A DNA stretch of 64,000 nt, from NCBI GenBank assembly GCA_944381085.1, contig CALWJX010000003.1, forward strand, positions 1 to 64,000. Reading direction: 5' to 3'. Origin of the DNA: an uncultured Clostridia bacterium. Its GTDB lineage: Bacteria > Bacillota > Clostridia > Oscillospirales > CAG-272. The notes under the pieces were generated by a model. It saw only the letters and a list, made by a program, of their open reading frames with translations. It did no database searches and was not told where the DNA came from. The position numbers were made by a program, and so were the translations under genes. This document shows, piece after piece, positions 46,346 through 62,094 of the stretch; position 1 is the first letter of the stretch, and each line of letters starts with the position of its first letter.

Positions 46346-47092
46346 ATGGAAAAAATAAGAATATCAAAATATTTTTCAATGTGCGGAATAATGTCCCGCA
46401 GGGCTGCGGAGGCTGAAATAGAGGCGGGTAAAGTGTATGTCAACAAGCAGGTGGCGCGGCTCGGGCAGTCAATCGACCCAAATTCCGATATTATAACATA
46501 TAAGGGAAAAACAATCAAACCCGCCACGGGGAAAAAAATCTGCATAATGTTGAACAAACCGAGAGGTATTGTATGCACCGCAAGGGACGAAAAAGGCAGA
46601 ACATGCATTACCGAACTTTGCCGTGTATATGACGGCAATCATAACCTTATCAGGCTTTACCCTATAGGCAGGCTTGACATGGACTCCGACGGTCTGATTT
46701 TGCTGACAAACGACGGCGAGCTTACAAATATTCTGACACATCCCCGCCACAGTATACCAAAAATTTATCATGTAACTTTAAATTCCGTTCTAAGCGATTC
46801 TGAAATAAAAACATTGGGTGAGCCGATTCTTATTGACGGAAGATACACTTCTCCGGCAGATACGGTAAGACTTGAAGAGTTTCGAGCCCGGAAAGATACA
46901 ACGATCGTTAAATTTACTCTCTTTGAAGGACGAAACAGACAAATACGCCGTATGTGCGAGTCACACGGGTATGAAGTATTAAAACTTACAAGAACGGCGA
47001 TCGGTAATCTTAAACTTGAAAATCTTCCTGCCGGGAAATGGAGAACACTTACGGAAAATGAAATAAACTATCTGAAAGGACAGACAAATTGA
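46346..47092 (+). CDS. RsuA/RluB/RluF-family rRNA pseudouridine synthase
   Basis: This 248-residue enzyme has an S4 RNA-binding domain (about 1-55, SKYFSMCGIMSRRAAEAEIE). The synthase domain follows: IMLNKPRGIVCTARDE, the catalytic aspartate in YPIGRLDMDSDGLILLTNDG, and EGRNRQIRRMCESHGYEVLK. The family modifies 16S or 23S rRNA; which uridine is modified cannot be read from the sequence. The downstream GNAT-like ORF overlaps its stop codon. Confidence 0.94.
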   Translation: MEKIRISKYFSMCGIMSRRAAEAEIEAGKVYVNKQVARLGQSIDPNSDIITYKGKTIKPATGKKICIMLNKPRGIVCTARDEKGRTCITELCRVYDGNHNLIRLYPIGRLDMDSDGLILLTNDGELTNILTHPRHSIPKIYHVTLNSVLSDSEIKTLGEPILIDGRYTSPADTVRLEEFRARKDTTIVKFTLFEGRNRQIRRMCESHGYEVLKLTRTAIGNLKLENLPAGKWRTLTENEINYLKGQTN

Positions 47093-47673: not shown

Positions 47674-47706
47674 AAAGGCTTTCTCAAAAAATCTGAGAAA
47701 GCCTTT
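47674..47706. terminator. Bidirectional terminator between convergent operons
   Basis: AAAGGCTTTCTCA (47674-47686) pairs perfectly with TGAGAAAGCCTTT (47694-47706). It lies 60 nt past the last gene of the minus-strand sugar-transport operon. The remaining 47437-47766 gap also holds a fragment similar to the palindromic repeat (ACTGCGGCATACTG near 47482). Confidence 0.85.
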
Positions 47707-47766: not shown

Positions 47767-48867
47767 TTATTCCGCGGTAAGTCCGGAACGCTCTATACCT
47801 TCAACCAGGAACCTCTGCATAAAGACATACAAAATGACCAGAGGCAAGATAATCATTATTCCGCACGTGTTTCTGATAGCCGCATAATACAGGTTCTGAC
47901 CCGCGTACTCGGTTTGCAGAGACGTCGGTATACCAACTATTTTCGGCAATAGATTGAAATCCGTTCTCGTAAAGAACAGGTTCGTATAGAAACTGTCCGT
48001 CCACTGCCAACAGAAAGCAAACAGGAACACTGTAATCATCATCGGAATGGAGATTGGCAAAATAATCTGGAAGAAGGTTCTGAAGTTACCCGAACCGTCT
48101 ATATACGCCGATTCCTCAAGTGAATCGGGTATTCCGCTGAAGAACTGTCTGAGCATGAATATGTACAAACCGTTTTTAAAGCCCAATCCCGTAATAGACA
48201 AAATAATCATCGGGAAGAATGTGTTTGTCAGATTCAACGAATGCTCTGTCGCAAGGGTGCGAATAACATCACTTGCGGCATTTGCGCTGAACAGTGAAAA
48301 TCCTTCAAAGACTCCCCCGCTGAGGAAAGACAGAATTCCAAGCACATCGAAATATCTGAAGTGCATGAAAATCGAGAATCTCAACGTCTTATGCGGAACT
48401 ATCATTGTCAGTACAACAAGCAGGAAAATAAGTTTATTTCCTTTGAATTTATATTTGGCAAGACCATAAGCAATAAGGCTGCAGACCAAGGTCTGAAGAA
48501 TCGCGGTCATCAATGAAAGCAATAAAGTGTTTTTAAAAGCGTCAAGATAATCAAGTTCGCTCCAGATTGCCTTATATATATCAAAAGTAAAGTGCTTCGG
48601 TATAAGCCTTACTGTCACGTCGACAAAGTCTTCCGGCGCCATAAAGGAACCCGCGACCTTTGTAAAAAACGGATAAAGTACGATATATGCTATGCCGAGC
48701 AGAAATACAAATCTGAAAAGCTTAAAAATAACATTCTGAAGGAAATAAATGTTTATAAACTTGGCCTTAAGTCTGTCTTTTAAAGGAGATCTCTCAAAAT
48801 CAACTTTGATTTTATTTTTGGACTCCTTTGTAACCTTTGGCGCTGAATTCTGTTTTTGTGCGTCCAT
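47767..48867 (-). CDS. Carbohydrate ABC transporter permease, MalG-type (second pair)
   Basis: This 366-residue inner-membrane permease of the CUT1 family has six predicted helices after a long charged N-terminus of about 50 residues. The EAA loop that contacts the ATPase reads EESAYIDGSGNFRTFFQIIL, followed by PISIPMMITVFLFAFCW. A further helix ends in LPLVILYVFMQRFLVEG, the usual MalG tail. AAGGAGG precedes the ATG at 48867. It is the last gene of the operon, 12 nt after its MalF-type partner. Confidence 0.93.
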   Translation of the reverse strand: MDAQKQNSAPKVTKESKNKIKVDFERSPLKDRLKAKFINIYFLQNVIFKLFRFVFLLGIAYIVLYPFFTKVAGSFMAPEDFVDVTVRLIPKHFTFDIYKAIWSELDYLDAFKNTLLLSLMTAILQTLVCSLIAYGLAKYKFKGNKLIFLLVVLTMIVPHKTLRFSIFMHFRYFDVLGILSFLSGGVFEGFSLFSANAASDVIRTLATEHSLNLTNTFFPMIILSITGLGFKNGLYIFMLRQFFSGIPDSLEESAYIDGSGNFRTFFQIILPISIPMMITVFLFAFCWQWTDSFYTNLFFTRTDFNLLPKIVGIPTSLQTEYAGQNLYYAAIRNTCGIMIILPLVILYVFMQRFLVEGIERSGLTAE

Positions 48868-48879
48868 TTTATCTCCTCC

Positions 48880-49881
48880 TTAATCATCACGTCTCTGATA
48901 AAAGACAAACAGCGATATAATACCTGCGACCGCAGCCAAAATCAACATGACTATCAAAAAGTACATCCATGACATCGCGGCGGCAACGCCGTCCGCGTCC
49001 GGCATGTTAGCCGATGTTCCGGTCTTTATACCTGAAATATAACTCATCACCGTATTGTTTTCTCTCGTAAACGCGTCTATAACCGTGTAAACCGCGTTTA
49101 CAAGTATCATTGGGCTTATCATCGGGAAGGTTATTTTCCAGAAAGTTTCCCAACCTGTCGCGCCGTCTATCTTACAGGCTTCGTAAATCGCAGGAGATAT
49201 TGACTGAAGACCCGCGAGGAATATAAGCATCTGAACACCTGATCTGTTGACTATATCATAAATATTATTGATAATCTCAACAACATATTCCACAAGATCC
49301 TGACCTATTTTCATATTTGAAAACAGATTTTGTACATCCATTGCCGAAACAATCTCAGTCGCCGCGCTTGACCCTGAACCATCGTCGATGCCGGCGGACT
49401 CATCCAAATATGAACCCAGAATATTCTGAGCTTCTATAGTCTCCATGATACCGGTCGAAAGTACAACGGGCAGGAAGAAAATCGCACGGAAAGCGGCGCG
49501 TCCCACCATTTTCTGATTCAGAAGTATCGCCATAAAGAGCGAGAAGAGTATTATTGCGGGAATGTCAAATATTATCTCACCGATACCGGTCACAAGAGTC
49601 TCATTAAAGTTTGCGTCCTCAAGCAAAGCATAACTGTAGTTATCGAAGCCTATAAATTCCGTCTCAAACCCACCGCCGGTTAGAATAATTATTTTATTGA
49701 AACTGTACCAAACGGACTGAACAATAATGGGAAGATATACACATACAAATCCTATTACAAAAGGAAGCACGAACAGCCATCCCGCACGGGCTTTGCGTTT
49801 GTTCAGAGATGCAATTTTTCTTTTCTTGGGAGCAGCATTTTTGCTGCTCCGTGTATTTTGAAGATTGGCTTCACCTGTCAT
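48880..49881 (-). CDS. Carbohydrate ABC transporter permease, MalF-type (second pair)
   Basis: This 333-residue CUT1 permease has a basic N-terminus (NAAPKKRKIASLNKRKARAG), six predicted helices and the EAA loop EACKIDGATGWETFWKITFP. Compared with usual MalF-type proteins it has an extra periplasmic segment between helices, about residues 145-195, rich in Ser, Asp and Glu (DESAGIDDGSGSSAATE). GAGGGG precedes the ATG. It lies 20 nt downstream of the DUF5696-like gene. Confidence 0.92.
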   Translation of the reverse strand: MTGEANLQNTRSSKNAAPKKRKIASLNKRKARAGWLFVLPFVIGFVCVYLPIIVQSVWYSFNKIIILTGGGFETEFIGFDNYSYALLEDANFNETLVTGIGEIIFDIPAIILFSLFMAILLNQKMVGRAAFRAIFFLPVVLSTGIMETIEAQNILGSYLDESAGIDDGSGSSAATEIVSAMDVQNLFSNMKIGQDLVEYVVEIINNIYDIVNRSGVQMLIFLAGLQSISPAIYEACKIDGATGWETFWKITFPMISPMILVNAVYTVIDAFTRENNTVMSYISGIKTGTSANMPDADGVAAAMSWMYFLIVMLILAAVAGIISLFVFYQRRDD

Positions 49882-49901
49882 TAAATTAACACCCCTCTTT
49901 C

Positions 49902-52900
49902 TTAAACGAGTAACGAAACAAATCCATACGCGGGAATCGTATACTCAATGTCATTGTAGACCACGTTAACGGCATAATTGTTATAATTCAGTATCAATAT
50001 CTTGTATGCCTCGCCCGAAGCGGTTCCGTAAGTCACAGCAACTATATTCTCGGTCTCGTACTTGGAATACTCGTCTTCTTCATCGTCGTCTTCTTCATCG
50101 TCGGACTGGTTGTTGCCGATATTGATTCTGTTTCTGATTTCTTCTTCTGTTATACCGTTTTCAACCGCAATCTGAAGAACTTCATCAAAGAGCGCCTGCG
50201 CGTCTTCATAATATTCCGCTATAGAGGGAGTATATTCGTAATATATATAGTTCTCTTCGGAAGTACCGGAATAATATATATCCCCATCTTCTCCGCGCTC
50301 TACATATACCACAGTGTCGTCATCAAGCGTCGTAAATACCTCGCCGTCATGCACAGCCTCTTCACGGTCTACGGAATTGAATGTATTTTTCGAACTGTCA
50401 TAGGTATAATAACCAAACTCCGTATCATTTATCTGCAGGTAATAAACGGTATCGTCGCCGTCCAAAACCGCGTAACACTCAACCGGTGTAAACACATCTG
50501 TCTCTTCATTCAGGCTGTAGAAAGTATATCCATCCTCATCCGAGCCGGTATAATAAAGTTTTCCGCTGCCAAAAACACTTACGGAGTAAACGGGAGTCTG
50601 AGCTTCATCGTCAAGCGTTCCGGCTTCCGTACCGTTGAGAATCAGCTCCTCTTCCTCAATTGCCTCAAGCTTAAAGTTGTTGAAGAGATCGACTGCGACA
50701 CGCACATGCTCTATCATTTCCTGTGTAACGGGAGTAAGTTCATTAAAGTTTTCTATACTCCAGATATCCCCGGGCTTTCCCTCAGCGTACTGAATACTGT
50801 CTTTCTGCGCGTTCGCAACTATAGCGATTCCGGCAGTCGCTTCCTCAATGTTCTTCACCATTGTCTCGCTGATAGACTGCAGTCTGCTGAGATAAGTGCC
50901 TCCCACCTGGCTTACAGCCGTGATAGCTCTGTTTCTTTCTCTGACATAAGTGTTGTAAGCGGTCTGATATTCTTCATAGTGAGCCTGAGATTCTTCATCT
51001 TCGCTGCCTTCAAGCTTATCATAGCCCAAAGCCACCAATTCATCAAGAGCCTCTTTTGCGTTTATATAACTCTGAAGTCTCTGATTCTTTGCGGTATCGT
51101 AAGCAGTGTATACATTGTTATATGCCTCAAGTGCGGTAAGCACGGACTCGAGCGCGAAGCTTTCCGCCAGACGTCCCGCCGCCCTTGCGTTTCCGACTGC
51201 CATCATAAGCTCTTCCTGAGCAATCTCAACCGCGTTTTTCTCGGCTTCCGCATACTCATTCATTTGATCAATAAGGTCTGCTTCAAGCTCATCCGCGTCA
51301 GGCACACGAACTCCCGAAAGGAACTCATGAGCAATTATGAATTTATCCTGAACGTCTTTCAGCGCTTCATTGATAGTGTTGTACGCTTCAATCATATCGT
51401 CTTTCCAGATATCATATCTTACGGAATAATACTGGCTGAACAGATAATCCTCTTTGAGATACTGAGTATTCTGGTATGAAAGTATGAAGTACGGAGAAGC
51501 TCCGTTTTCAAGCGCCTTCAGTATCGCGTATTGCATATTGCCTTCCATGTTCAAAGCCGTTCCCGCAAAATTCATAGAACCGTGAAGAACAACTCCGATA
51601 AACGGAACAGCCGCCGAAGCCTTATTGTAACGTGAGGAGTCAAGCGCAACTCCGAGAATATGATCAACATATTTCCATGTATACGCGTTTCCGCCCTCTG
51701 TCATTACCTGGTCATAATTTTCATCAAAGAACTGGAACGCTTTGATTGTAAACTCTTTCGCGTCCTCGCGGTTATACGGTTCATCCTCGTCAAAATCAGA
51801 GTTCAGACTCATACCCAGCGTGGATACTGATATTCCGGTTACGTTTTCATAAGCGCCAAGGTAATTTTCAGTGAGCTTTTCATAAAATCTTGAGAAATAC
51901 GCGGGGGAGATAACAAGCTCATAATAGTTAACATATTTCTGCTGCGTCGGGCTGTATTCACGTCTGCTTGCATACCGGTCGTCTATAGTCTTCGCGGCAT
52001 GTTTGCTCGTAGATACACCGTCAAAAGAACTTACATACTTAATATAGTTGAAATCAAAATCAGGGAAAATGCCGAGATTGCTGTTTTCTTCTGCCGACAT
52101 TTCAGCGGCGTAGTTCAAAAGCCCCTGGAAGTCCAAATCCCCTTCAACAGCTTTTTCGATGTCGAACTTATAAGGCACCGTCTCATACAAACCGCCGTTG
52201 GCGTATCCGGTCAGTTTAAAGTTGACGTTCTTTATTCCGCCTTCATTCATATCCTCATACATTTTCTTTATATCGTCAAAAGTCGTAAGAGGAGTCATAA
52301 CACTAACGGGGATAGACATGACCTTCTGAAGTGTTTCTATAGTTCCGAAAGTCTCAATATAAAGCGGAATATCCTCAATAATCTCGTCAGAGGTAAGCGG
52401 GGACAGTATACCTTCGTCGGTCAGATAGTCGCGGTAAGCGACAGCCATTCCAAACCATGAAGCGTCATATGTTTTAACGCCCTGTGCCTCCGCCTCTTCG
52501 TCATATTCGGAAAGCATAATATATCTTATCTTATAACTTCCGACATATTTTCTTGAACTTACAACCGTCCATGTCGAGTTTGTACCGACCGAAATAGAAT
52601 CCGCCACATTGTAAGAGTCCCTCGGTCTTGGGTTGAACTGCATTTGCATAGTGTTATAATCGCTGAGCGAGCCCGCGTGATAAGTCGATATCTCCGCCAA
52701 AGCGTCTCCCTCTTCAATTACAGCCATATACCCTCGCTTGCTTTCAACCTTTTCCACCTGCATAGATGAGCTTGACACAATGCTGCCGTATGTAGGTCCG
52801 TATGAACTTTCCATAGAAGAAAGCTCCGATGTGGTTTCCTGTTCCCGCGCCTCGTTGATCTTATTTACTATGGCGCCGTTTATTGTATACACATTTTGTT

Positions 52901-54152
52901 CATCGGTATCGCTGTCATAATCCGTATAATTATAGAAGACAGTATCTTCCACAACTCCGAACACGGGATATCTTATAGTCTGCTGATACGTGCCGCTTAT
53001 TTCATGATACGCAAAGTCTGTTCCGTAAACCTTTCCGCTTACAGTCGTTGTGGTTGTCAGATCAAGGTCTTCAAATGAGAATAATGTTCCCGACCCGTCA
53101 GGATAGAAGTTATATCCCGTATATTCACTGTTTCCCGCGCCCATATAAGGCAGAACGCTGATATATGAAAGCTGGTAGAGCGATTCGTTAAATCTTATTC
53201 CGTTCGCGGGAAGCCGCACACTCATACCCTTGTCGTCAAGAGTATATTCAAGCGCCATTTTGAACAGAGGCGGATTTTCCTCCTCTGACACATACTCTGT
53301 AAGCGCATGGTCAGCGTCAAGATCTTCATACGTATAGTCAGGACAATAAGTTTTGATAAGCTCTTCGCAAAGCGTCTTCTCCGCGTCCGAAGCATCCGGG
53401 TCAAACACATAGACCGGCATTTTCTGAACAATCGGGAAAGAAGCTATAAGCTCCTGCTTAGCTCTTTCACTTGTAAGTTCGTCGAGGTCCTTCAGCATAT
53501 AATAGGCGTCAAACTTACCGTACATAAACGCGGAAGTTCCGCCTATCATATTTTCAGCCATCGGGGCAAGTATCGCTTCTTCAAATCTCTCCTTTGAAAT
53601 AAGTCTCGGAAGAAGCAATTTTGCCTGTTCACGTCCGATAGTGTATTCGACACGTATTCCGTTTTTGATATTCTTAACAACTATCTGGTCACGGAGCGCG
53701 GCCATTTCATAGCTGTAAAAATACTTTTCAGTGTCGTTATCGGTATATCTTACAACTATCTGGGAAAGTATCTGCTGTTTTGTAGATTCAGAACCTGTGG
53801 AAGCTCCCACATCATACGGGTTGGTAAAGAGTATTTCGCCCGTAACGGTATTGACGGTTGCCACCTCTCCGCTGAAATCATCTACATATAACTGATAATT
53901 GCCCTTTGTCAGTTTCAGTTCCATTGTAGCAAGCTTTTCCTGCGGCGTAGCATATACTTTCGACGTATAGTTATCCTCCGACGATTCCTCGCCTTCTTCG
54001 CCCTCACCGTCGGTATCGGTGTCTGTTCCCGTATTTGAATCGGATCCGGACTCATCCGCAGCAAATACGCTTACAACCGACAGTGCCGACAAAGATCCAA
54101 GCAATAACAGAGCAGTTAAGAGTAGCGATATTATTCTGTATCTTTTTTTCAT
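49902..54152 (-). CDS. Very large exported DUF5696-like protein
   Basis: This 1,416-residue protein has a signal peptide (MKKRYRIISLLLTALLLLGS, cleavage near AFA-like VFAAD at about 32) and an acidic Ser/Thr/Glu linker. A beta-rich N-terminal part (KLTKGNYQLYVDDFSGEVAT) follows. The central section, about 550-950, has the alternating pattern of a glycosidase-like barrel (NLGIFPDFDFNYIKY, VTGISVSTLGMSLNSD, GNAYTWKYVDHILGV). A coiled segment spans about 960-1140. An acidic repeat region follows (KLYYTGSDEDGYTFY, TVYYLQINDTEFGYY, DIYYSGTSEENYIYY), and the terminal YKILILNYNNYAVNVVY is family-typical. It has no cell-wall anchor. The context suggests carbohydrate handling outside the cell. Confidence 0.75.
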   Translation of the reverse strand: MKKRYRIISLLLTALLLLGSLSALSVVSVFAADESGSDSNTGTDTDTDGEGEEGEESSEDNYTSKVYATPQEKLATMELKLTKGNYQLYVDDFSGEVATVNTVTGEILFTNPYDVGASTGSESTKQQILSQIVVRYTDNDTEKYFYSYEMAALRDQIVVKNIKNGIRVEYTIGREQAKLLLPRLISKERFEEAILAPMAENMIGGTSAFMYGKFDAYYMLKDLDELTSERAKQELIASFPIVQKMPVYVFDPDASDAEKTLCEELIKTYCPDYTYEDLDADHALTEYVSEEENPPLFKMALEYTLDDKGMSVRLPANGIRFNESLYQLSYISVLPYMGAGNSEYTGYNFYPDGSGTLFSFEDLDLTTTTTVSGKVYGTDFAYHEISGTYQQTIRYPVFGVVEDTVFYNYTDYDSDTDEQNVYTINGAIVNKINEAREQETTSELSSMESSYGPTYGSIVSSSSMQVEKVESKRGYMAVIEEGDALAEISTYHAGSLSDYNTMQMQFNPRPRDSYNVADSISVGTNSTWTVVSSRKYVGSYKIRYIMLSEYDEEAEAQGVKTYDASWFGMAVAYRDYLTDEGILSPLTSDEIIEDIPLYIETFGTIETLQKVMSIPVSVMTPLTTFDDIKKMYEDMNEGGIKNVNFKLTGYANGGLYETVPYKFDIEKAVEGDLDFQGLLNYAAEMSAEENSNLGIFPDFDFNYIKYVSSFDGVSTSKHAAKTIDDRYASRREYSPTQQKYVNYYELVISPAYFSRFYEKLTENYLGAYENVTGISVSTLGMSLNSDFDEDEPYNREDAKEFTIKAFQFFDENYDQVMTEGGNAYTWKYVDHILGVALDSSRYNKASAAVPFIGVVLHGSMNFAGTALNMEGNMQYAILKALENGASPYFILSYQNTQYLKEDYLFSQYYSVRYDIWKDDMIEAYNTINEALKDVQDKFIIAHEFLSGVRVPDADELEADLIDQMNEYAEAEKNAVEIAQEELMMAVGNARAAGRLAESFALESVLTALEAYNNVYTAYDTAKNQRLQSYINAKEALDELVALGYDKLEGSEDEESQAHYEEYQTAYNTYVRERNRAITAVSQVGGTYLSRLQSISETMVKNIEEATAGIAIVANAQKDSIQYAEGKPGDIWSIENFNELTPVTQEMIEHVRVAVDLFNNFKLEAIEEEELILNGTEAGTLDDEAQTPVYSVSVFGSGKLYYTGSDEDGYTFYSLNEETDVFTPVECYAVLDGDDTVYYLQINDTEFGYYTYDSSKNTFNSVDREEAVHDGEVFTTLDDDTVVYVERGEDGDIYYSGTSEENYIYYEYTPSIAEYYEDAQALFDEVLQIAVENGITEEEIRNRINIGNNQSDDEEDDDEEDEYSKYETENIVAVTYGTASGEAYKILILNYNNYAVNVVYNDIEYTIPAYGFVSLLV

Positions 54153-54176
54153 TCTATCTTTCTCCTATTCTGTTAG

Positions 54177-56315
54177 TTAAATCCGGTATTGAATCTCTGT
54201 GACAATATTGGTAACCAAACTTACCATTTTTCCCACAAGAGTTGAGAACAGTATCGCGATAAACATTATAAATACCATCGCGACAGCGGTTCCGAGTATT
54301 GTCAACACGTTTCTTCCCAAAGTATAGTCGTGCGTAACCTGTGTCCCGAAGAAAATCAATATTCCAAGCCAGATAAATGCCACCGTGCTCAAAAAGCTGA
54401 TTATGCTGACCTCTGTAGAAATGGCAAAATTGGAATAAATTGTGAGCGGTATAATCATAATCGGAAGCGGAAGCAAACTGTACGATGAAGCTACAAAGAT
54501 GTCCTTAAAGCTGCCTTCTCCCTCAAACAGCGTGGTAAGACACCAGTTTGAAAGTACAAACAGGAACAGAGGCACAAGCACTCCCAACGCCTGAGACCAT
54601 ATAGATGAGAAATATCCCTCCGGATTGAGCAGGTATCCCTGTCCCATCGACTGATAGAAGAATGCGAGTATAGTTATGATGATAAATACAATTGACGCCC
54701 GAACAGATCCCCTCTTCTCGTGCTTCAGATCCCAGTAGCCGTCAAACGGATGGAATATAACATAAAATCCGTATGCAAGTTCCTGTCCGAAAGTTCTCTT
54801 TCCTCCTGAAGTCGCGGCCTTTGTGTTGACCTTCTTTATAAATTTATTGAAGAATATTATTGCGACTATAATCACAACTATAATCGCCAACAGTATCAGA
54901 AAATACGAAGACATCCATTCTTTTCTTATTTCCTGATATGATTTAGACCAGTTTTCAGTGTCATAAGCGGCTTCATAGTACTGAAGCGACTCTTCATATT
55001 CGCCGTTCCTGTACATTGCCTGACCGATACCTACGTATGCGGCGTCAAAGTTGGAGTTTCTTTTGAGCACTTCGGTCCACATATTAATCGCGGTGGTAAA
55101 GTCCTGATCATTCTCCGCCGCTATGGCTTCCATCAGAATATTGCCGTATTCCGTACGTTCAAACACCGTTATATTGTCGTTCGTCTTGTCAAGTATAAGC
55201 ATCGTATCACCCTGATACGTGATTGCCTCTATACTTGAAAGGTCTCCGAGCATTGTTCCGGTATCGCCGAACGCGAACAGAAGATTTCCGTTTTGGTCAT
55301 ATGTATAGATTCTCTGTCTCTTTTCGTCTATGATAGACCATGTGCCTTCCTCACCCTCGGCAACGTCGATAATGGTTGACACTCCGGTAATATCATCCGT
55401 CTCGCGGGTGGAATAATCTATTTCCCCGGCAGGCGGCCAGAAACCGTTACGTCTCATTATCTCATCACCGTTGGTGTTCAAAAGCTTTACAGGCATATAA
55501 GTACCGTCTTTTGATTTTCCGGTAATAGCTCCCGCGACAGTATCTTCTTCAATCGAAGAGGTAGTTACATATATAAACCCACCGTCTCCCATGGCGATGT
55601 TGTTAAACTCGGTAGACACATTGGCTTCCTGCTGCTCCTGCTGCTCTTCGGTCCTGAATCTTCTCATAATGATTTCCCAAGCCGAAAGCGTAACCGCCTG
55701 AGCTCCGATAAATCCGGTAAATTCGCCCTCTTCCGTCATTACTATAATACCCTGATAAGTGGTCGAGGACACAACAAAGAGTCTGTTATAATCGTCAACC
55801 GCGATTGCCACGGGTCTGTAAACAGAATCGTTTTCAAAAAGCGACGATTCGGGTTCATCAATAACATTGAGAAATTCTCCGTCCCTGTCGAAAACAACGA
55901 TTCGGTTGGCGCCGGTATCGCATACCCAAATACGGTCGCTTGAAATATACAATCCCTGCGGAGCAGTAAGATTATCCGAAACTCCATGCTCATTGACAAA
56001 GTCGGATATGATAAACTTCAGTTTATAATATCTGTCAAGACAGACAATTCTGTTGTTGCCGGTGTCGGCGATATATACATTACCCTGATCGTCCGTAATA
56101 AGGTCTCCCGGAGTTTCAATCGGGACGTCAAGACCCATATACGTCGAGTCCACTGTCATAGCGGCAGTGTAAGCATCAGGCGAATACAGCGCGTAGCCAT
56201 CCATGGAGTATGTATATGTCTGATACGCCGAGCTTGCGCTTACAGCCACCGTCGCGCAGGAGGCAATCATAATAAACGCGAATGCTATACACAATATTTT
56301 TGTGATTTTTTTCAT
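54177..56315 (-). CDS. NHL beta-propeller / TPR / YIP1-type membrane protein
   Basis: This 712-residue protein has three modules. A signal region contains a possible lipobox (IASC at 17-20, or later cleavage near SAS). An extracytoplasmic NHL-type propeller spans about 45-390 (DDQGNVYIADTGNNRIVCLD, VCDTGANRIVVFDRDGEFL, GNLLFAFGDTG). A TPR-like helix pair lies at about 410-465 (YVGIGQAMYRNGEYEESLQY), followed by a transmembrane helix at about 475-498. A YIP1-type bundle of about five helices covers 530-705. It sits between the two permease pairs, an arrangement I have seen associated with DUF5696 proteins. Its role is unknown; a surface sensor or scaffold is an inference. Confidence 0.82.
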   Translation of the reverse strand: MKKITKILCIAFAFIMIASCATVAVSASSAYQTYTYSMDGYALYSPDAYTAAMTVDSTYMGLDVPIETPGDLITDDQGNVYIADTGNNRIVCLDRYYKLKFIISDFVNEHGVSDNLTAPQGLYISSDRIWVCDTGANRIVVFDRDGEFLNVIDEPESSLFENDSVYRPVAIAVDDYNRLFVVSSTTYQGIIVMTEEGEFTGFIGAQAVTLSAWEIIMRRFRTEEQQEQQEANVSTEFNNIAMGDGGFIYVTTSSIEEDTVAGAITGKSKDGTYMPVKLLNTNGDEIMRRNGFWPPAGEIDYSTRETDDITGVSTIIDVAEGEEGTWSIIDEKRQRIYTYDQNGNLLFAFGDTGTMLGDLSSIEAITYQGDTMLILDKTNDNITVFERTEYGNILMEAIAAENDQDFTTAINMWTEVLKRNSNFDAAYVGIGQAMYRNGEYEESLQYYEAAYDTENWSKSYQEIRKEWMSSYFLILLAIIVVIIVAIIFFNKFIKKVNTKAATSGGKRTFGQELAYGFYVIFHPFDGYWDLKHEKRGSVRASIVFIIITILAFFYQSMGQGYLLNPEGYFSSIWSQALGVLVPLFLFVLSNWCLTTLFEGEGSFKDIFVASSYSLLPLPIMIIPLTIYSNFAISTEVSIISFLSTVAFIWLGILIFFGTQVTHDYTLGRNVLTILGTAVAMVFIMFIAILFSTLVGKMVSLVTNIVTEIQYRI

Positions 56316-56333
56316 TATGTTTTCCTCCGCAAA

Positions 56334-57206
56334 TTAATCTTTCATACCGCTGGAGCCCATTGTCTCTATAATATTGGACTGCGATACGACAAATACAAGT
56401 ATCGGCACCATCATCATGATAACCGTAGCGGCGGCCGACGCGCCCGCACGCTTTATACCTCCGGCAGTTATCTGAGTAATGGCATAGCTGAACGATTTCA
56501 GCTGTTCCGAATGGATATACATTGACGCGCCCGCGTTCCAAAGCGACTGGAACGAGTAGATTATAAGCGTCAGCCATGCCGGCTTGACCATCGGCATCGC
56601 AATCGTCCAATATGTCTTAAGCTCGCTTGCGCCGTCAAGACGCGCCGACTCAAGCACGGTATCCGGGACGTTGGAATCCATGAACTGCTTCATAAGATAA
56701 AGTCCGAGTGTGGACGCCCATGCGGGGACTATAATAGCCCAGTACGTATCAAGCCAATGAAAAGCGGAGAATATAATAAATGACGTAATTGATGTCACAG
56801 TCGCGTTGAACATCAGCGAAAGCTGTACAAGCTGGAACATTCCGTTAGCGCCCGGGAATTTGATTTTTGCCAGAGTGTAAGCGGCAAGAGACGCTATGAA
56901 CAGATGACCGAAAGTACCCGCCACAGAAGTGAATATCGTGTTGAATATATATCTTGAGAAAGGAACCCATGATTCATTCATTAGCGAGAACAGCGACTTG
57001 AAGTTGCTGAAAGTCGGACTCATGACATAAAATTTAGGGGGATACATCCAAAGCTCATCAAGAGGCTTCAGAGACTGCATAATTGTATACAGCATAGGCA
57101 AAAACATGAAGATTCCCAGAATTGTAAGAATAATGGTTATTCCCACGTCACCGCCTGCCGAACGCGCAAGTACGACTTTATGTTTTCTCGTTCTTAATTT
57201 TGCCAT
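56334..57206 (-). CDS. Carbohydrate ABC transporter permease, MalG-type (first pair)
   Basis: This 290-residue CUT1 permease has six helices. Near the start is IGITIILTILGIFMFLPMLYT, and the EAA loop reads LESARLDGASELKTYWTIAM. The ATG starts one nt after the stop of the partner permease, with AAAGGTAGG as ribosome site inside that gene's end, so the two are tightly coupled. Confidence 0.94.
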   Translation of the reverse strand: MAKLRTRKHKVVLARSAGGDVGITIILTILGIFMFLPMLYTIMQSLKPLDELWMYPPKFYVMSPTFSNFKSLFSLMNESWVPFSRYIFNTIFTSVAGTFGHLFIASLAAYTLAKIKFPGANGMFQLVQLSLMFNATVTSITSFIIFSAFHWLDTYWAIIVPAWASTLGLYLMKQFMDSNVPDTVLESARLDGASELKTYWTIAMPMVKPAWLTLIIYSFQSLWNAGASMYIHSEQLKSFSYAITQITAGGIKRAGASAAATVIMMMVPILVFVVSQSNIIETMGSSGMKD

Positions 57207-57207
57207 A

Positions 57208-58155
57208 TTACGTACCTACCTTTGACAATATCTTCTTGACGATAGCGTTAGCGCCGACCATTATTACAAACAGCACCACGGCTATTGCCGATGAATAACC
57301 TATCTCATATCTCTGCCCGCCATAGTCTTCAAGATGGTGCATAATAGTATGCGCCGAATAGTTTACCGACGGGAATCCGCAAAGCGCCGTAACGATAGCT
57401 CCGTATCCGAACGCTCCGGTTATCGACATTACGGCTCCGAACATGAGCTGAGGCTTCATTGAAGGTAAGGTTATATAATACAACTCCTGCCATCTGTTCT
57501 TGATGCCGTCAACCGCGCCCGCCTCATACAGGGAAGCGTCAACTCCCTGCAGACCGGCGATAAATGAAAGAAACGCGGTTCCAAGGGAGGTCCACAGAGA
57601 GACCACAATGCACAAAGGCATAGCATATTCTTCTCTCTGGAACCAGTTTATTTCCTCATCAATAAGTCCCAACTCAAGCAATGTCGCGTTTACCCATCCG
57701 TACGAGTCTGCCGAAAACAAAGTTTGCCAAATAAGATACGCCTGACCGGAGATTGAAGGAGCGTAGAAGATAAGCGTGACCACAGCTCTGATTTTCGGGG
57801 GAAGTTCGTTGATAAACCAAGCCACCAAAAACGACAGCAAATATGATGCGGGACCCACGATAGCGGCAAATATAAATGTATTTTTACATGCAATCAGGAA
57901 GATGTCATCGTCAAAGAACAATGTTATGTAATTGTTAAGGAAGACGAAATCAGGCATTTCCAGCATATTGAAGTTTGTAAAGCTGATTATTATCGAAAGA
58001 ATAACCGGGAAAACAGTAAATATCAGAAAAAGAATCATATACGGAGCGACCATAAGATACGCGACCTTATTCCGCTTCATCTCTTTCCATACCCACTGAC
58101 CCATAGTCATGTCTTTACGAGCAACAGCTTGTTTTTCTGCTGTTTTCTTAGACAT
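57208..58155 (-). CDS. Carbohydrate ABC transporter permease, MalF-type (first pair)
   Basis: This 315-residue CUT1 permease has helices starting near 33 (AYLMVAPYMILFLIFTVFPV). Its EAA loop is YEAGAVDGIKNRWQELYYIT, then LPSMKPQLMFGAVMS. AAGGAGAGAG precedes the ATG. It is encoded 52 nt downstream of the fused solute-binding protein gene, so this pair is the most likely membrane partner of that protein. Confidence 0.94.
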   Translation of the reverse strand: MSKKTAEKQAVARKDMTMGQWVWKEMKRNKVAYLMVAPYMILFLIFTVFPVILSIIISFTNFNMLEMPDFVFLNNYITLFFDDDIFLIACKNTFIFAAIVGPASYLLSFLVAWFINELPPKIRAVVTLIFYAPSISGQAYLIWQTLFSADSYGWVNATLLELGLIDEEINWFQREEYAMPLCIVVSLWTSLGTAFLSFIAGLQGVDASLYEAGAVDGIKNRWQELYYITLPSMKPQLMFGAVMSITGAFGYGAIVTALCGFPSVNYSAHTIMHHLEDYGGQRYEIGYSSAIAVVLFVIMVGANAIVKKILSKVGT

Positions 58156-58207
58156 TTGCTCTCTCCTTATATAGATTATAGATCATTAAAACCTTTAGAC
58201 AAATAAA

Positions 58208-61200
58208 TCAATAAGTTGCCAGCGCGTCCGCCGCGTCAGAAAGCGCCTCCGCTATATAATACAGAAGTTCTTTCTCGCTGAGCTCTTCAATATCGGGACT
58301 GAGTCTGAGGTTTACTGCCGAATTTTCATCCGTCAGTCCCATAACTTTTTCCGACATGTTCCGCATTGTAACTATATCGTCGCTTCTGATTGCCGAATGC
58401 ACCTCATTGACAAGGGCAGCATTCGATGACCATTTTTCATTAAGCAGGTCGGCTGCCGCCTGTGCCTGATCAAGTCTCTTCTGAGCAAGCGTCTGACCCT
58501 GCTCCAGCGTTTCAAGTCCGAACTCTTCCCTCTTACGGGTAATTTCTTTATTGATTATATTAATGTAGGACAAAAGCGCGTCTGACGGATCGGCGTTTTC
58601 GTTATACGCGGAAAGGAAAGCAAAGTTTGTATAACGCGCCAGAATATAAGCTCCGGGGTAGTTAGGCACCGCCGCAAGATTATTGAACTGAAGTCTTATC
58701 TGTTCATATTCATCTGTTGTCCAAGGCAGACTCTCAAGCGCATATCTGTTTGCCGTAGGATGCTTTGCGGAAGGACCGAGCACCGCTACCATTTCATTTG
58801 TATACTCTGTCTGACAATCGGCGCCTGTATACCATTTCATGTATTCCCACGCGCTGTCTTTCACATCCTCGGCGCCTCTCACCATTACAAGCGCGGTAAC
58901 CGTCGATATGGAACTGTTATTTATATTTCCGCTTTCATCCACAATTCCGGGAAGCGGCACAAATTGCCACAATCCCTCTATTTCCGTTGCAAAGACCTTG
59001 AGCTGATTGTACAGGGTGGTATAATCGGCGATGATTATCGGCAACTCGCCGGTTCTGAAACGGTTTGCGGCGTCATATGTGTACGGGAATTTATACATGG
59101 TAAACATGTTACACATCATCTCGAATGACGAAAGCCCTACGCTTGAATCAAGATTTATTCTCATACCCTCATCGGCAAAAAGCTCACCGCCCATCTGATA
59201 AAGGAATATCCTGTACTCGGTTGTCAGACCTATTTCCATATTATGAGACTGAAGAACCGGTATGGCGGCCTTTACATCATCCCATGTCTTCGGAATTTCC
59301 AAATCAAGATCCGCGAGTATATCCGTGCGGACGAACATCATCGGGAAAGACTGCGTTTCGGGCAGACCGTAATAATGCATTGTTCCGTCCGGGTCGTTTA
59401 TTCCCAATACAAGCATAGCCGAGTCGGTAAACGAATCTGTAACTTCGTTAAAGTCATCGAACTCATCGACCGCAAGAATTGCCGAACGTATCGCGTAGTT
59501 TATCGTATCGTCCTGGCTCAGTCCGTGATATACATCTGGTCCCTGCCCGGCAAGAACCGACGGCAGCAAGGTGCCGACAGCGACAAGCTTCAGATCCACG
59601 GACACGCCGGATTCGGGAGTAAAATCATTGTTTATGAGGTTCCTTGTAACCTGAGTCTGGTCACGTCCGGTTGCAAGCCATACCTCAATATTTTCGGTTG
59701 CGTTATCGCTGAGAGAACCCATGCTGTCATAATCTCTGAAGAAACTCCAGAAAAAGCTCTTTAACTCATGGAAAATCGAAACAAAGAAATTTGTGGTAGC
59801 CTTCGGCATCTCGGCCTCAGGAGATTGTATCATTATATAATCTATCTGCAACGGCTGAGTTCTGGCGTCGGAAAGGAAAGTTCCCAGAGTTCCGACATAG
59901 CTCTTGAGACGGGCAAGATTGCGGGCTATCTCATCCTCGTTAGTACCCATTTCCCTGAGAAGCGCGGCCACCTTCTGAAGCGTACCCACATTGGAAGATT
60001 TCTGCCCGGAAAATTCGGTAAGAATTTCAGCGACTGCCTCAAGCTCTCTTGCCTGAAGCACCATGTCTATAAGCGTATCGGGCATTATTCTCGAAAAACC
60101 GTAATCGCGGTATTTGTCGGGGTTGGCTCCGGTAAGCTGCATAATGGTAAGATAATCGTTGTTTATGCGATCGAGGCTGGTCTGCACACGGTTGATTATA
60201 TCTCCCATTCTTCCCAAAGTGACCTCAAATTTAATCTCATATGTAACGCCGGCTTTAAAGAATATCTTATAGCTTTCTTCGGAGCTGCCGTTTGTCAGCG
60301 CCGTTACCTGCCATGAGTCGTCAAAGCTGTACGCGATGGACTTTGCCTCTTCAAAAGGAACGCCGTTATAGTATCCTTCTTCTCCTTCTTCAAGACCCTC
60401 ACTGTATATATACATAATCCGGTTGACATACATACCGTCAAGCACATTCTGTCTGAATCTCGTTACTATGTCATACAGTCCGTCCGAATCAACTTTGAAC
60501 TTATAAGATACCGTCTGGCCCGCGGTCTGCCATTTTTCTCCGCCTATAGTGTTGAGAACCGTTCTCGAAACATCCGCCGGGGATGTTGCCGCGGAGGATC
60601 TGTCCTCGACAGCATAAATTGTTTTGTCGCTGGTCGATGAAGTATATTCGCTCTCAAGCTTGATCTGACTTGTTCCGTTGGGCTTCGAGGCATACTGAGC
60701 TATATATTCCTCATAGCTCGGAAGGCTTTCGGACGGGCAGAGCTTTATGGATTTTATCGCCATGGGTTCGTTTTTGCCTTCAAGAGTAAGAATCGCTTCT
60801 CCCTCTTCAAGCACAAACTCAAAAGCCGAAGCCACGTATCCGGTCGAATCGCTTACGGTATATGTAGTCCATTCGGGCGACTGTACCGCCTCCGGACGAA
60901 GCTCATTGTTTTCGACATCCAGCTTCATAAATCTCAGTCCGTATTTTGTACAGAATTCCGAAATCGCCTGCGTCCATACATCAGGATATTCAAAATAAAG
61001 TTTTCCGTCGCTTTCATAAGCGGTAAGTCCGGCGCTCTCACCCTCGGTTTTCACCGTAGACACAGCTGTATCGCCGTTGTAGACCGCGTCCTCGTAATCG
61101 TTGATCCAGTTCTTTACAAACGTAAGATAACGCGCCTCTTTAAAAGGAACATTGTTATTTATTTTAAGCACACGCTCAATCGACGCCGCTTTACCCTCAA

Positions 61201-61624
61201 CCGGGTAATACTCTATCACTATCGTGTATTTGGCGGTCGCCGGCACGTTGATCTTCCAAGAAACCGTGCCCGAAGTCGGAGTATATATGGCCTGAACCCC
61301 GTCATACTCCTTGATGCTCCAATCGGCAGTGGTCTGGTCAAGCACCAAGTTGGACTCATCGGCGGCGTCTATGATAATCTCTTCCTTTGCCGCCGGCACA
61401 TCCGGATATCTCGCGATATATTCTTCATAAGAAATCGCGTTCAGCAACTCTTTTATTTCATCAAGAGTGCTGTCGGTCACCGAGGATGTGTCTCCGTCTT
61501 CCGGTTCAATGTCTTCCGAGACGGAATCCGCCGCAAAGACAGTCACTGAAAGACTGCTCAATACAAACATCAAAGAAAGAAACAACGCCGTAAATCTTTG
61601 AAATTTCGTTTTCCTCATCTTCAA
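58208..61624 (-). CDS. Extracellular solute-binding protein fused to duplicated N-terminal modules
   Basis: This 1,138-residue exported protein starts with TTG at 61624, since AGGAGG is 7 nt upstream; an ATG two codons later is too far. The signal peptide ends at about VFA-AD (31). Two similar modules follow, each beginning SYEEYIARY or SYEEYIAQY (about 68 and 305) and containing NNVPFKEAR or NGVPFEEAK. They look like carbohydrate-binding beta-sandwiches. A family-1 solute-binding domain spans about 645-1040 (NIEVWLATGRDQTQ, VGTLLPSVLAGQGPDVYHGL, SAWEYMKWYTGADCQTEYTN). The last 100 residues are helical. No lipobox is present, so the anchor is unclear. Usual CUT1 binding proteins have about 420-550 residues. 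Confidence 0.87.
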   Translation of the reverse strand: MKMRKTKFQRFTALFLSLMFVLSSLSVTVFAADSVSEDIEPEDGDTSSVTDSTLDEIKELLNAISYEEYIARYPDVPAAKEEIIIDAADESNLVLDQTTADWSIKEYDGVQAIYTPTSGTVSWKINVPATAKYTIVIEYYPVEGKAASIERVLKINNNVPFKEARYLTFVKNWINDYEDAVYNGDTAVSTVKTEGESAGLTAYESDGKLYFEYPDVWTQAISEFCTKYGLRFMKLDVENNELRPEAVQSPEWTTYTVSDSTGYVASAFEFVLEEGEAILTLEGKNEPMAIKSIKLCPSESLPSYEEYIAQYASKPNGTSQIKLESEYTSSTSDKTIYAVEDRSSAATSPADVSRTVLNTIGGEKWQTAGQTVSYKFKVDSDGLYDIVTRFRQNVLDGMYVNRIMYIYSEGLEEGEEGYYNGVPFEEAKSIAYSFDDSWQVTALTNGSSEESYKIFFKAGVTYEIKFEVTLGRMGDIINRVQTSLDRINNDYLTIMQLTGANPDKYRDYGFSRIMPDTLIDMVLQARELEAVAEILTEFSGQKSSNVGTLQKVAALLREMGTNEDEIARNLARLKSYVGTLGTFLSDARTQPLQIDYIMIQSPEAEMPKATTNFFVSIFHELKSFFWSFFRDYDSMGSLSDNATENIEVWLATGRDQTQVTRNLINNDFTPESGVSVDLKLVAVGTLLPSVLAGQGPDVYHGLSQDDTINYAIRSAILAVDEFDDFNEVTDSFTDSAMLVLGINDPDGTMHYYGLPETQSFPMMFVRTDILADLDLEIPKTWDDVKAAIPVLQSHNMEIGLTTEYRIFLYQMGGELFADEGMRINLDSSVGLSSFEMMCNMFTMYKFPYTYDAANRFRTGELPIIIADYTTLYNQLKVFATEIEGLWQFVPLPGIVDESGNINNSSISTVTALVMVRGAEDVKDSAWEYMKWYTGADCQTEYTNEMVAVLGPSAKHPTANRYALESLPWTTDEYEQIRLQFNNLAAVPNYPGAYILARYTNFAFLSAYNENADPSDALLSYINIINKEITRKREEFGLETLEQGQTLAQKRLDQAQAAADLLNEKWSSNAALVNEVHSAIRSDDIVTMRNMSEKVMGLTDENSAVNLRLSPDIEELSEKELLYYIAEALSDAADALATY

Positions 61625-62060
61625 AACTTTTCCTCCTGCAAAATTTTTGCGATACAGTGCGGAAAACCACCGTATCCATTTAGGTTTCGCGCTCCCGTCA
61701 GCAACCGTCCGCCGCGAATATCGCCCGCCGATTCCGGATGAATATCCGCAAGCATCCCGCTACGGATGCAGTACCGCGGAACGCCGTAAAGACGGCCTCG
61801 ACTGCGCATTTGCGTCCTCGCTTCAATCGGCATAAGTTCCGACTTAATATACATGCCGCCACGGACACGCCGCATCGCGTTACCGGGCGCGCCTCCAGAT
61901 TAAGCGGTACACGCCGTATCAAATGCGGGGCTTTAATCGGTTTTCTTCTATTTTATTAAACACAGGTCAGAATACACCTGCTTTAAAGTAGAAAAAAGCA
62001 CTTTACAATGTCCAAGATGCCACACGGCAACAACGGTATGCAAAGTATCCTAAATTTACT
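61625..62060 (-). promoter_or_regulatory. Long GC-rich leader of the sugar-transport operon
   Basis: About 430 nt separate the predicted transcription start (near 62060) from the first gene. The part at 61650-61930 is much richer in G and C than the flanks. Near the 5' end are small hairpins such as AAAGTGC...ACTTT (61994-62007 region) and CAGGT...ACCTG (61962-61982). No known riboswitch class is recognised. An open frame of 84 codons (61875-61621) crosses it and its stop overlaps the TTG start of the next gene. Confidence 0.5.
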
Positions 62061-62065
62061 TTATT

Positions 62066-62094
62066 ATAATACCACATCAAACCGGTTTTGTCAA
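62066..62094 (-). promoter_or_regulatory. Promoter of the sugar-transport operon
   Basis: On the minus strand, TTGACA (62089-62094) is followed after 17 bp by TATTAT (62066-62071). The AT-rich stretch 62095-62560 between this and the next promoter holds nothing else I recognise. Confidence 0.8.

Follow-up and report, generated by a model that had tools for sequence, protein, structure and literature searches.

How might an operon with two pairs of sugar permeases, a single binding protein and no ATP-binding gene import its substrates? This question is raised by seven adjacent genes in a stretch of 64,000 nucleotides (hereafter the window) from an uncultured Clostridia bacterium, whose genome assembly (G000) is 98% complete. 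The reading that we develop here is that the operon would encode two CUT1-type importers driven by one ATPase, the second of them fed by dispersed orphan receptors, and we put the probability of this reading at roughly 0.5. It offers a testable explanation of how bacteria might import many sugars through very few permeases. The comparative evidence behind it appears to divide the unit into two importers and gives its largest protein, which carries the DUF5696 domain, a probable fold family.

Layout and conservation of the seven-gene operon

All seven genes lie on the minus strand and are separated, in transcript order, by 52, 1, 18, 24, 20 and 12 nt. ORF calls and Pfam matches agree with the preliminary description of this DNA, which had listed seven genes on one strand with gaps of 1–52 nt, two MalF/MalG pairs and a fused binding protein; as it had also stated, neither ORF calls nor Pfam gave an ATP-binding gene inside the seven-gene operon. 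The features, in window coordinates, are the following.

62066–62094, minus strand: promoter-like site TTGACA-17-TATTAT with extended TG (sigma-70-like, 11/12), a candidate only
58208–61624, minus strand: giant solute-binding protein (SBP), 1138 aa (Pfam SBP_bac_8, 45.5 bits)
60185–61462, minus strand: predicted CBM35/CBM6-like region of the giant SBP, approximately residues 55–480 (model and profile match)
58796–59572, minus strand: SBP domain of the giant SBP, residues 685–943 (SBP_bac_8)
57208–58155, minus strand: MalF1, CUT1-type permease of sub-module 1, 315 aa (BPD_transp_1; best curated profile UgpA)
56334–57206, minus strand: MalG1, CUT1-type permease of sub-module 1, 290 aa (BPD_transp_1; best curated profile UgpE)
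54177–56315, minus strand: NHL propeller-TPR-transmembrane helix-YIP1 protein, 712 aa (NHL, TPR_16 and Yip1 over cut-offs)
49902–54152, minus strand: DUF5696 exported protein, 1416 aa (PF18952, 438 bits)
51315–52835, minus strand: putative GH129-like barrel of the DUF5696 protein, best Pfam stretch (PF18952)
48880–49881, minus strand: MalF2, CUT1-type permease of sub-module 2, 333 aa (BPD_transp_1)
47767–48867, minus strand: MalG2, CUT1-type permease of sub-module 2, 366 aa (BPD_transp_1)
47674–47706, minus strand: terminator-like hairpin with a 15-bp stem, after malG2 (sequence scan)

The promoter-like candidate precedes the first start by about 440 nt and is the best among 45 such sites in the region, where 33 are expected by chance. 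No Rfam match, riboswitches included, was found in 44–64 kb, and the ~440 nt between this site and the first gene (61625–62066) possibly hold a regulatory leader. Read by eye, the flanks encode an RNA pseudouridine synthase (46346–47092) and an RNA methyltransferase (62648 onwards); among the flanking ORFs there are no glycan-degrading enzymes adjoining the operon of the kind that mark a polysaccharide utilisation locus.

DUF5696 (PF18952) marks the seven-gene unit and was detected in 161 of the 295 genomes sampled from one Gram-positive order, more than half, as well as in other orders of the phylum, the sample from which gave 46 of 399 genomes. The comparison of DUF5696 neighbourhoods that the preliminary description had suggested covered 105 loci, the window among them. 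The order SBP-MalF1-MalG1-NHL/YIP1-DUF5696-MalF2-MalG2 was found in 73 of them, exactly in 53 and with NHL and YIP1 as adjacent separate genes in 20; 85 of the 105 were sampled regardless of gene order and 20 were added later to seek exceptions, the proportion of exceptions among these 20 carrying no meaning and only their existence counting. Median gaps in the loci with conserved order were 0–20 nt. Because this order is kept in so many loci, and because the unit is present in several copies per genome in the large genomes (6–7 Mb) of another family of the phylum (L148–L152), the cluster is a fixed conserved unit and not a product of chance.

In families other than that of the window, many loci are linked to polysaccharide enzymes of various kinds, namely GH26 with CBM35, CBM27 or CBM6, GH30, GH31, GH10, an apiosidase-like enzyme and pectate lyase. 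At one locus (L163, genome G446) a 659-aa SBP and a GH26/CBM27/CBM6 protein come after the module, and mannan is a likely substrate there. At another (L145, genome G209) a divergent DUF5696 gene has no giant SBP, YIP1 or CUT1 permeases adjoining it, and the domain may also serve elsewhere than in the module. A single-sequence scan of genome contigs gave four relatives only. An apparent per-genome mismatch between the positions of giant SBPs and of DUF5696 was set aside, as the genome search scores few candidates per genome and the fetched loci held further DUF5696 genes.

Two sub-modules and their surface proteins

All four permeases are BPD_transp_1 proteins with an EAA loop, two to each pore, as is characteristic of CUT1 systems. 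The EAA coupling motif was present in 88 of 89 MalF1, 81 of 85 MalG1, 94 of 94 MalF2 and 89 of 97 MalG2 homologues, and in the 94 MalF2 homologues the loop glycine was invariant, the residue before it being Glu more often than Asp. MalG1 and MalG2 further have a conserved C-terminal tail; in Bacillus subtilis, both the EAA loop and the MalG tail have been tied to coupling with the ATPase MsmX (PMC5730181).

Judging from pairwise-distance correlations over 75 loci, the seven proteins fall into two blocks. NHL-YIP1, DUF5696, MalF2 and MalG2 correlate with one another at r = 0.92–0.94 and the giant SBP, MalF1 and MalG1 at 0.84–0.92, compared to 0.74–0.84 across the blocks. In families f71 and f86 and their relatives, complete operons occur along with operons whose two halves are swapped (L162, L165, L173) and free-standing halves, which are either SBP-MalF1-MalG1 (L168, L174, L181, L187) or NHL/YIP1-DUF5696-MalF2-MalG2 (eight loci: L154, L155, L156, L160, L172, L177, L178, L184). 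By this pattern of divergence and gene content, the operon is made up of two sub-modules, the first comprising the giant CBM35-like binding protein, MalF1 and MalG1 and the second the NHL/TPR/YIP1 protein, DUF5696, MalF2 and MalG2. A small SBP_bac_1-type protein lies at most 3 kb from free-standing sub-module 2 in six of the eight loci; in the remaining two it is farther away but still inside the sequence that was fetched. No small SBP was found by free-standing sub-module 1 in any of its four loci, and the window's family, with 26 loci, likewise has none adjoining the operon. In the source genome, the giant SBP is the putative cognate sugar-binding protein linked to sub-module 1, and none is linked to sub-module 2.

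These data bear on the proposal of the preliminary description that the operon forms one composite machine with one binding protein, in which the giant SBP would serve both permease pairs, DUF5696 and the NHL-YIP1 protein would be shared, and the orphan lipoproteins treated below would be unrelated. That the seven genes stay side by side at most loci, and that those 26 loci lack a small SBP, both agree with such a machine; however, co-divergence yields two sub-modules, and in one clade the halves live apart, sub-module 2 then having another SBP nearby. The preliminary description had named permease pairs in separate operons with different binding proteins as the finding that would overturn its proposal, and separate loci of this sort exist in f71/f86, even though the seven-gene order is the prevailing one across the loci compared. 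We regard a single machine as unlikely.

The giant SBP is laid out as an N-terminal signal or anchor, a CBM35/CBM6-like β-sandwich region, a helical linker and the SBP domain. Its profile matches Lin1841 (E = 1.3e-35), and a region of it matches cyclo-isomaltooligosaccharide glucanotransferase (CITase; E = 8e-9). The predicted model of its N-terminal 426 residues (medium confidence, pLDDT 66) matches CBM35/CBM6 structures with E down to 5e-7, which points to a CBM35/CBM6-type β-sandwich fold for this part of the protein. Unlike usual Gram-positive SBPs, it has no lipobox, and its N-terminus therefore probably keeps it in place, uncleaved or anchored in some other way.

The DUF5696 protein comprises an N-terminal β-domain, a GH129-like barrel, a helical and acidic insertion and a C-terminal β-domain. 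Its profile matches the GH129 structures 5opq (1.7e-10), 8rzg (2e-10) and 5wzn (4.5e-6), and GH101 weakly; by these matches DUF5696 is distantly related to glycoside hydrolase family 129. The preliminary description had called the roles of DUF5696 and of the YIP1-type part not established; the former thus gains a GH129-like profile, and the roles that we assign to both stay putative. Parts of the N-terminal β-domain and barrel of NagBb (5wzn) and of a 3,6-anhydro-D-galactosidase (5opq) align with the DUF5696 profile, whereas the GH129 model PF11308 has no match in the protein, for which Pfam gives DUF5696 only, and the NagBb columns that the mutant entry 5wzq alters are not conserved, nor is the metal-site column. 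PF11308 likewise had no match in the source genome or related genomes, in a search that gave none in any control either. Over 77 sequences no conserved acid pair was seen on the barrel strands, D786 being kept in 87%, and the LHLDGW column of NagBb reads KLTGY in the window's protein, in an alignment that stops short of the catalytic residues. DUF5696 may be an enzyme, its active site then being a different one, or it may be a binder that lacks catalytic activity. The insertion of ~385 residues between the barrel and the C-terminal β-domain (near residues 975–1360, window 50073–51230) is helical, then acidic and Tyr-rich; it is missing from most relatives, being present in the near-identical L024 and absent from L025–L027 in the alignment.

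The 712-aa protein reads, in order, as an exported NHL propeller and TPR, one helix and a YIP1 membrane domain, with seven hydrophobic segments including the N-terminal one; it is split into two adjacent genes in ~20 relatives.

The ATPase and the dispersed lipoproteins

The preliminary description had taken the operon for a carbohydrate-uptake unit with glycan-binding surface parts and an unlinked MsmX/UgpC-type ATPase, and had proposed a search for such an orphan gene. This expectation was borne out, as a single UgpC-type ATPase is over the cut-off in G000 (492 bits), unlinked and with no transport gene beside it. G000 has 11 BPD_transp_1 matches, comprising the four in the operon, a potBC-like pair beside an ATPase, an opp/dpp-like pair and single genes; with classes assigned from context, only the four operon permeases are CUT1-like. 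Judging from these sequences, the operon's ATPase is very probably this one UgpC/MsmX-type gene.

SBP_bac_1 matches once in G000, by the potBC-like pair, and SBP_bac_8 weakly matches three further lipoproteins of ~500 aa. A profile of the latter gave the following set.

G000 contigs C54, C1, C25, C48, C8, C29, C24, C5 and C38 (L203–L211): nine intact orphan SBP-like lipoproteins, ~480–510 aa

These nine genes, on nine contigs, have no linked permeases, and their neighbours are mostly housekeeping genes. Together with 24 from a close relative (G285), the resulting 33 orphans align with the module-adjacent small SBPs with an hhalign probability of 99.9 (E = 6.8e-35), and 33 of 34 orphans match a model of those small SBPs at 42–95 bits. 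SBP_bac_1 matches 11 of the 33 and SBP_bac_8 matches 10; the best PDB match of the 33-orphan profile is a solute-binding protein (4e-5), the nine G000 orphans alone being uninformative, and every aligned sequence has the lipobox cysteine. By these matches the orphan lipoproteins are SBPs, homologous to those that accompany sub-module 2 elsewhere.

No MalF or MalG ORF was found near any of the 34. Across 12 family genomes, 62 of 64 orphan-type genes had no binding-protein-dependent permease within 15 kb, the two exceptions lying 5.8 kb from a non-CUT1 permease and 9 kb from the operon itself. Their number per family genome ranges from 1 to 26, with ~26 in G285, where four of nine BPD_transp_1 matches belong to the operon and are the only CUT1-like permeases. 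As G000 and G285 orphans intermix in the tree, with expansions in each, the set appears to be old and to grow by lineage. Neighbours in G285 include AraC regulators, sugar oxidoreductases, xylose-isomerase-like proteins and an aldolase, as would be expected for small catabolic cassettes without a transporter of their own. Beside one G000 orphan (L210:7141-8376) and near the UgpC-type ATPase (L212:2286-3548) lie two proteins of ~415 aa with similar N-termini (WxGIPxxF...) and no Pfam match, possibly an unnamed glycoside-hydrolase-like family.

In the mechanism that we propose, importer 1 would consist of the giant CBM-fused SBP and MalF1-MalG1, the SBP holding polymeric or branched glycan at the surface and handing oligosaccharides to the pore. 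Importer 2 would consist of MalF2-MalG2, always together with the exported GH129-like DUF5696 protein and the NHL-TPR-YIP1 membrane protein, the latter perhaps as a docking or scaffold part. With no linked small SBP in the window's lineage, importer 2 would obtain its substrates from unlinked orphan lipoproteins, nine in G000, and the single unlinked UgpC/MsmX-type ATPase would drive both pores. Gene content, conservation, the two sub-modules, the coupling motifs, the one ATPase candidate, the lack of other CUT1-like permeases and the homology of the orphans to SBPs found with sub-module 2 elsewhere are what this proposal draws from the sequence; what we infer is that the orphans physically pair with MalF2-MalG2 (or with both pores) and that the ATPase couples to the permeases, along with the functions of DUF5696 and NHL-YIP1 and the substrates. 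Against an orphan-fed importer 2, the orphans group together in the tree, separately from the module-adjacent SBPs, and for this reason the choice of MalF2-MalG2 over MalF1-MalG1 as their partner is a guess. Several relatives, moreover, have only 1–5 such genes, and the housekeeping surroundings of most G000 orphans also speak against it.

Given the AraC-type regulators nearby (6 of 66 orphan neighbours), the orphans could instead be sensors. This would suit an account in which the two importers are ordinary, take up different sugars and have only their operon in common, DUF5696 acting at the surface as an exo-glycosidase that supplies importer 2. Separable sub-modules, a GH129-like fold and the links of other loci to GH26, GH30, GH31, GH10 and pectate lyase are all compatible with it, but MalF2-MalG2 would be left without any binding protein in the window's family and no conserved catalytic acid pair is seen in DUF5696, so that we consider this account improbable. 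That DUF5696, as a GH-derived non-catalytic glycan binder, is itself the binding protein of MalF2-MalG2 would fit their co-divergence (0.92), its position next to malF2 in nearly all loci and a NagBb metal-site column that is not kept, but is very doubtful given the small SBPs that also accompany free-standing sub-module 2, the lack of any SBP-type Pfam match in DUF5696 and an AlphaFold2 model, made from five sequences, that is unusable (pLDDT 38).

A broader version of the preferred reading, two importers with an orphan-fed second pore, is hub-and-spoke uptake, which we put forward more tentatively: one conserved double importer, together with its surface parts and one ATPase, might be the genome's sole CUT1 machinery for up to ~26 dispersed lipoprotein receptors. 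If true, new sugars would be added by gaining a receptor gene alone.

Comparison with known systems

It is established that sugar importers can share an ATPase. Pore sharing among many ABC sugar receptors would go beyond this; to our knowledge, a shared pore has so far been mainly a hypothesis, raised for tricarboxylate-type transporters, and the literature searched (most subscription papers being outside its reach) yielded neither such an ABC case nor any mention of DUF5696 or description of the module.

Among characterised systems, the MsmX-energised CUT1 importers AraNPQ and YtcQP-YteP of Bacillus subtilis (PMC5730181) and the MsmK-dependent importers of Anaerocellum bescii (PMC12838199) resemble the window's operon in combining an SBP with two EAA-loop permeases, in operons that lack an ATPase and use a common unlinked UgpC/MsmX-type one. 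Unlike these, the window's operon has two permease pairs, a CBM-fused giant SBP and fixed DUF5696 and NHL-TPR-YIP1 partners. Athe_0085-87 of Caldicellulosiruptor bescii, a putative oligosaccharide transporter with no assigned substrate, may be the SBP-permease part of a copy of the module, with L163, where an SBP and a GH26 protein follow the module, as a point of likeness; the paper gives three genes, however, without DUF5696 or YIP1 (PMC8579813).

The Bug/TctC orphan SBPs of Bordetella and Rhodoplanes are likewise many, unlinked and served by very few membrane partners, and for them one membrane component common to several SBPs has been proposed as a hypothesis (PMC11452294, PMC5994714). Expanded unlinked binding-protein genes alongside few permeases are found here too. 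Those systems are tripartite tricarboxylate transporters, secondary and specific for organic acids, whereas the proteins described here are CUT1-type ABC SBPs (SBP_bac_1/SBP_bac_8) and Gram-positive lipoproteins, and it is by analogy that dispersed receptors might share a pore here. Two importers in one unit, with one common ATPase and unlinked receptors for the second or both pores, would be the most economical account of the operon.
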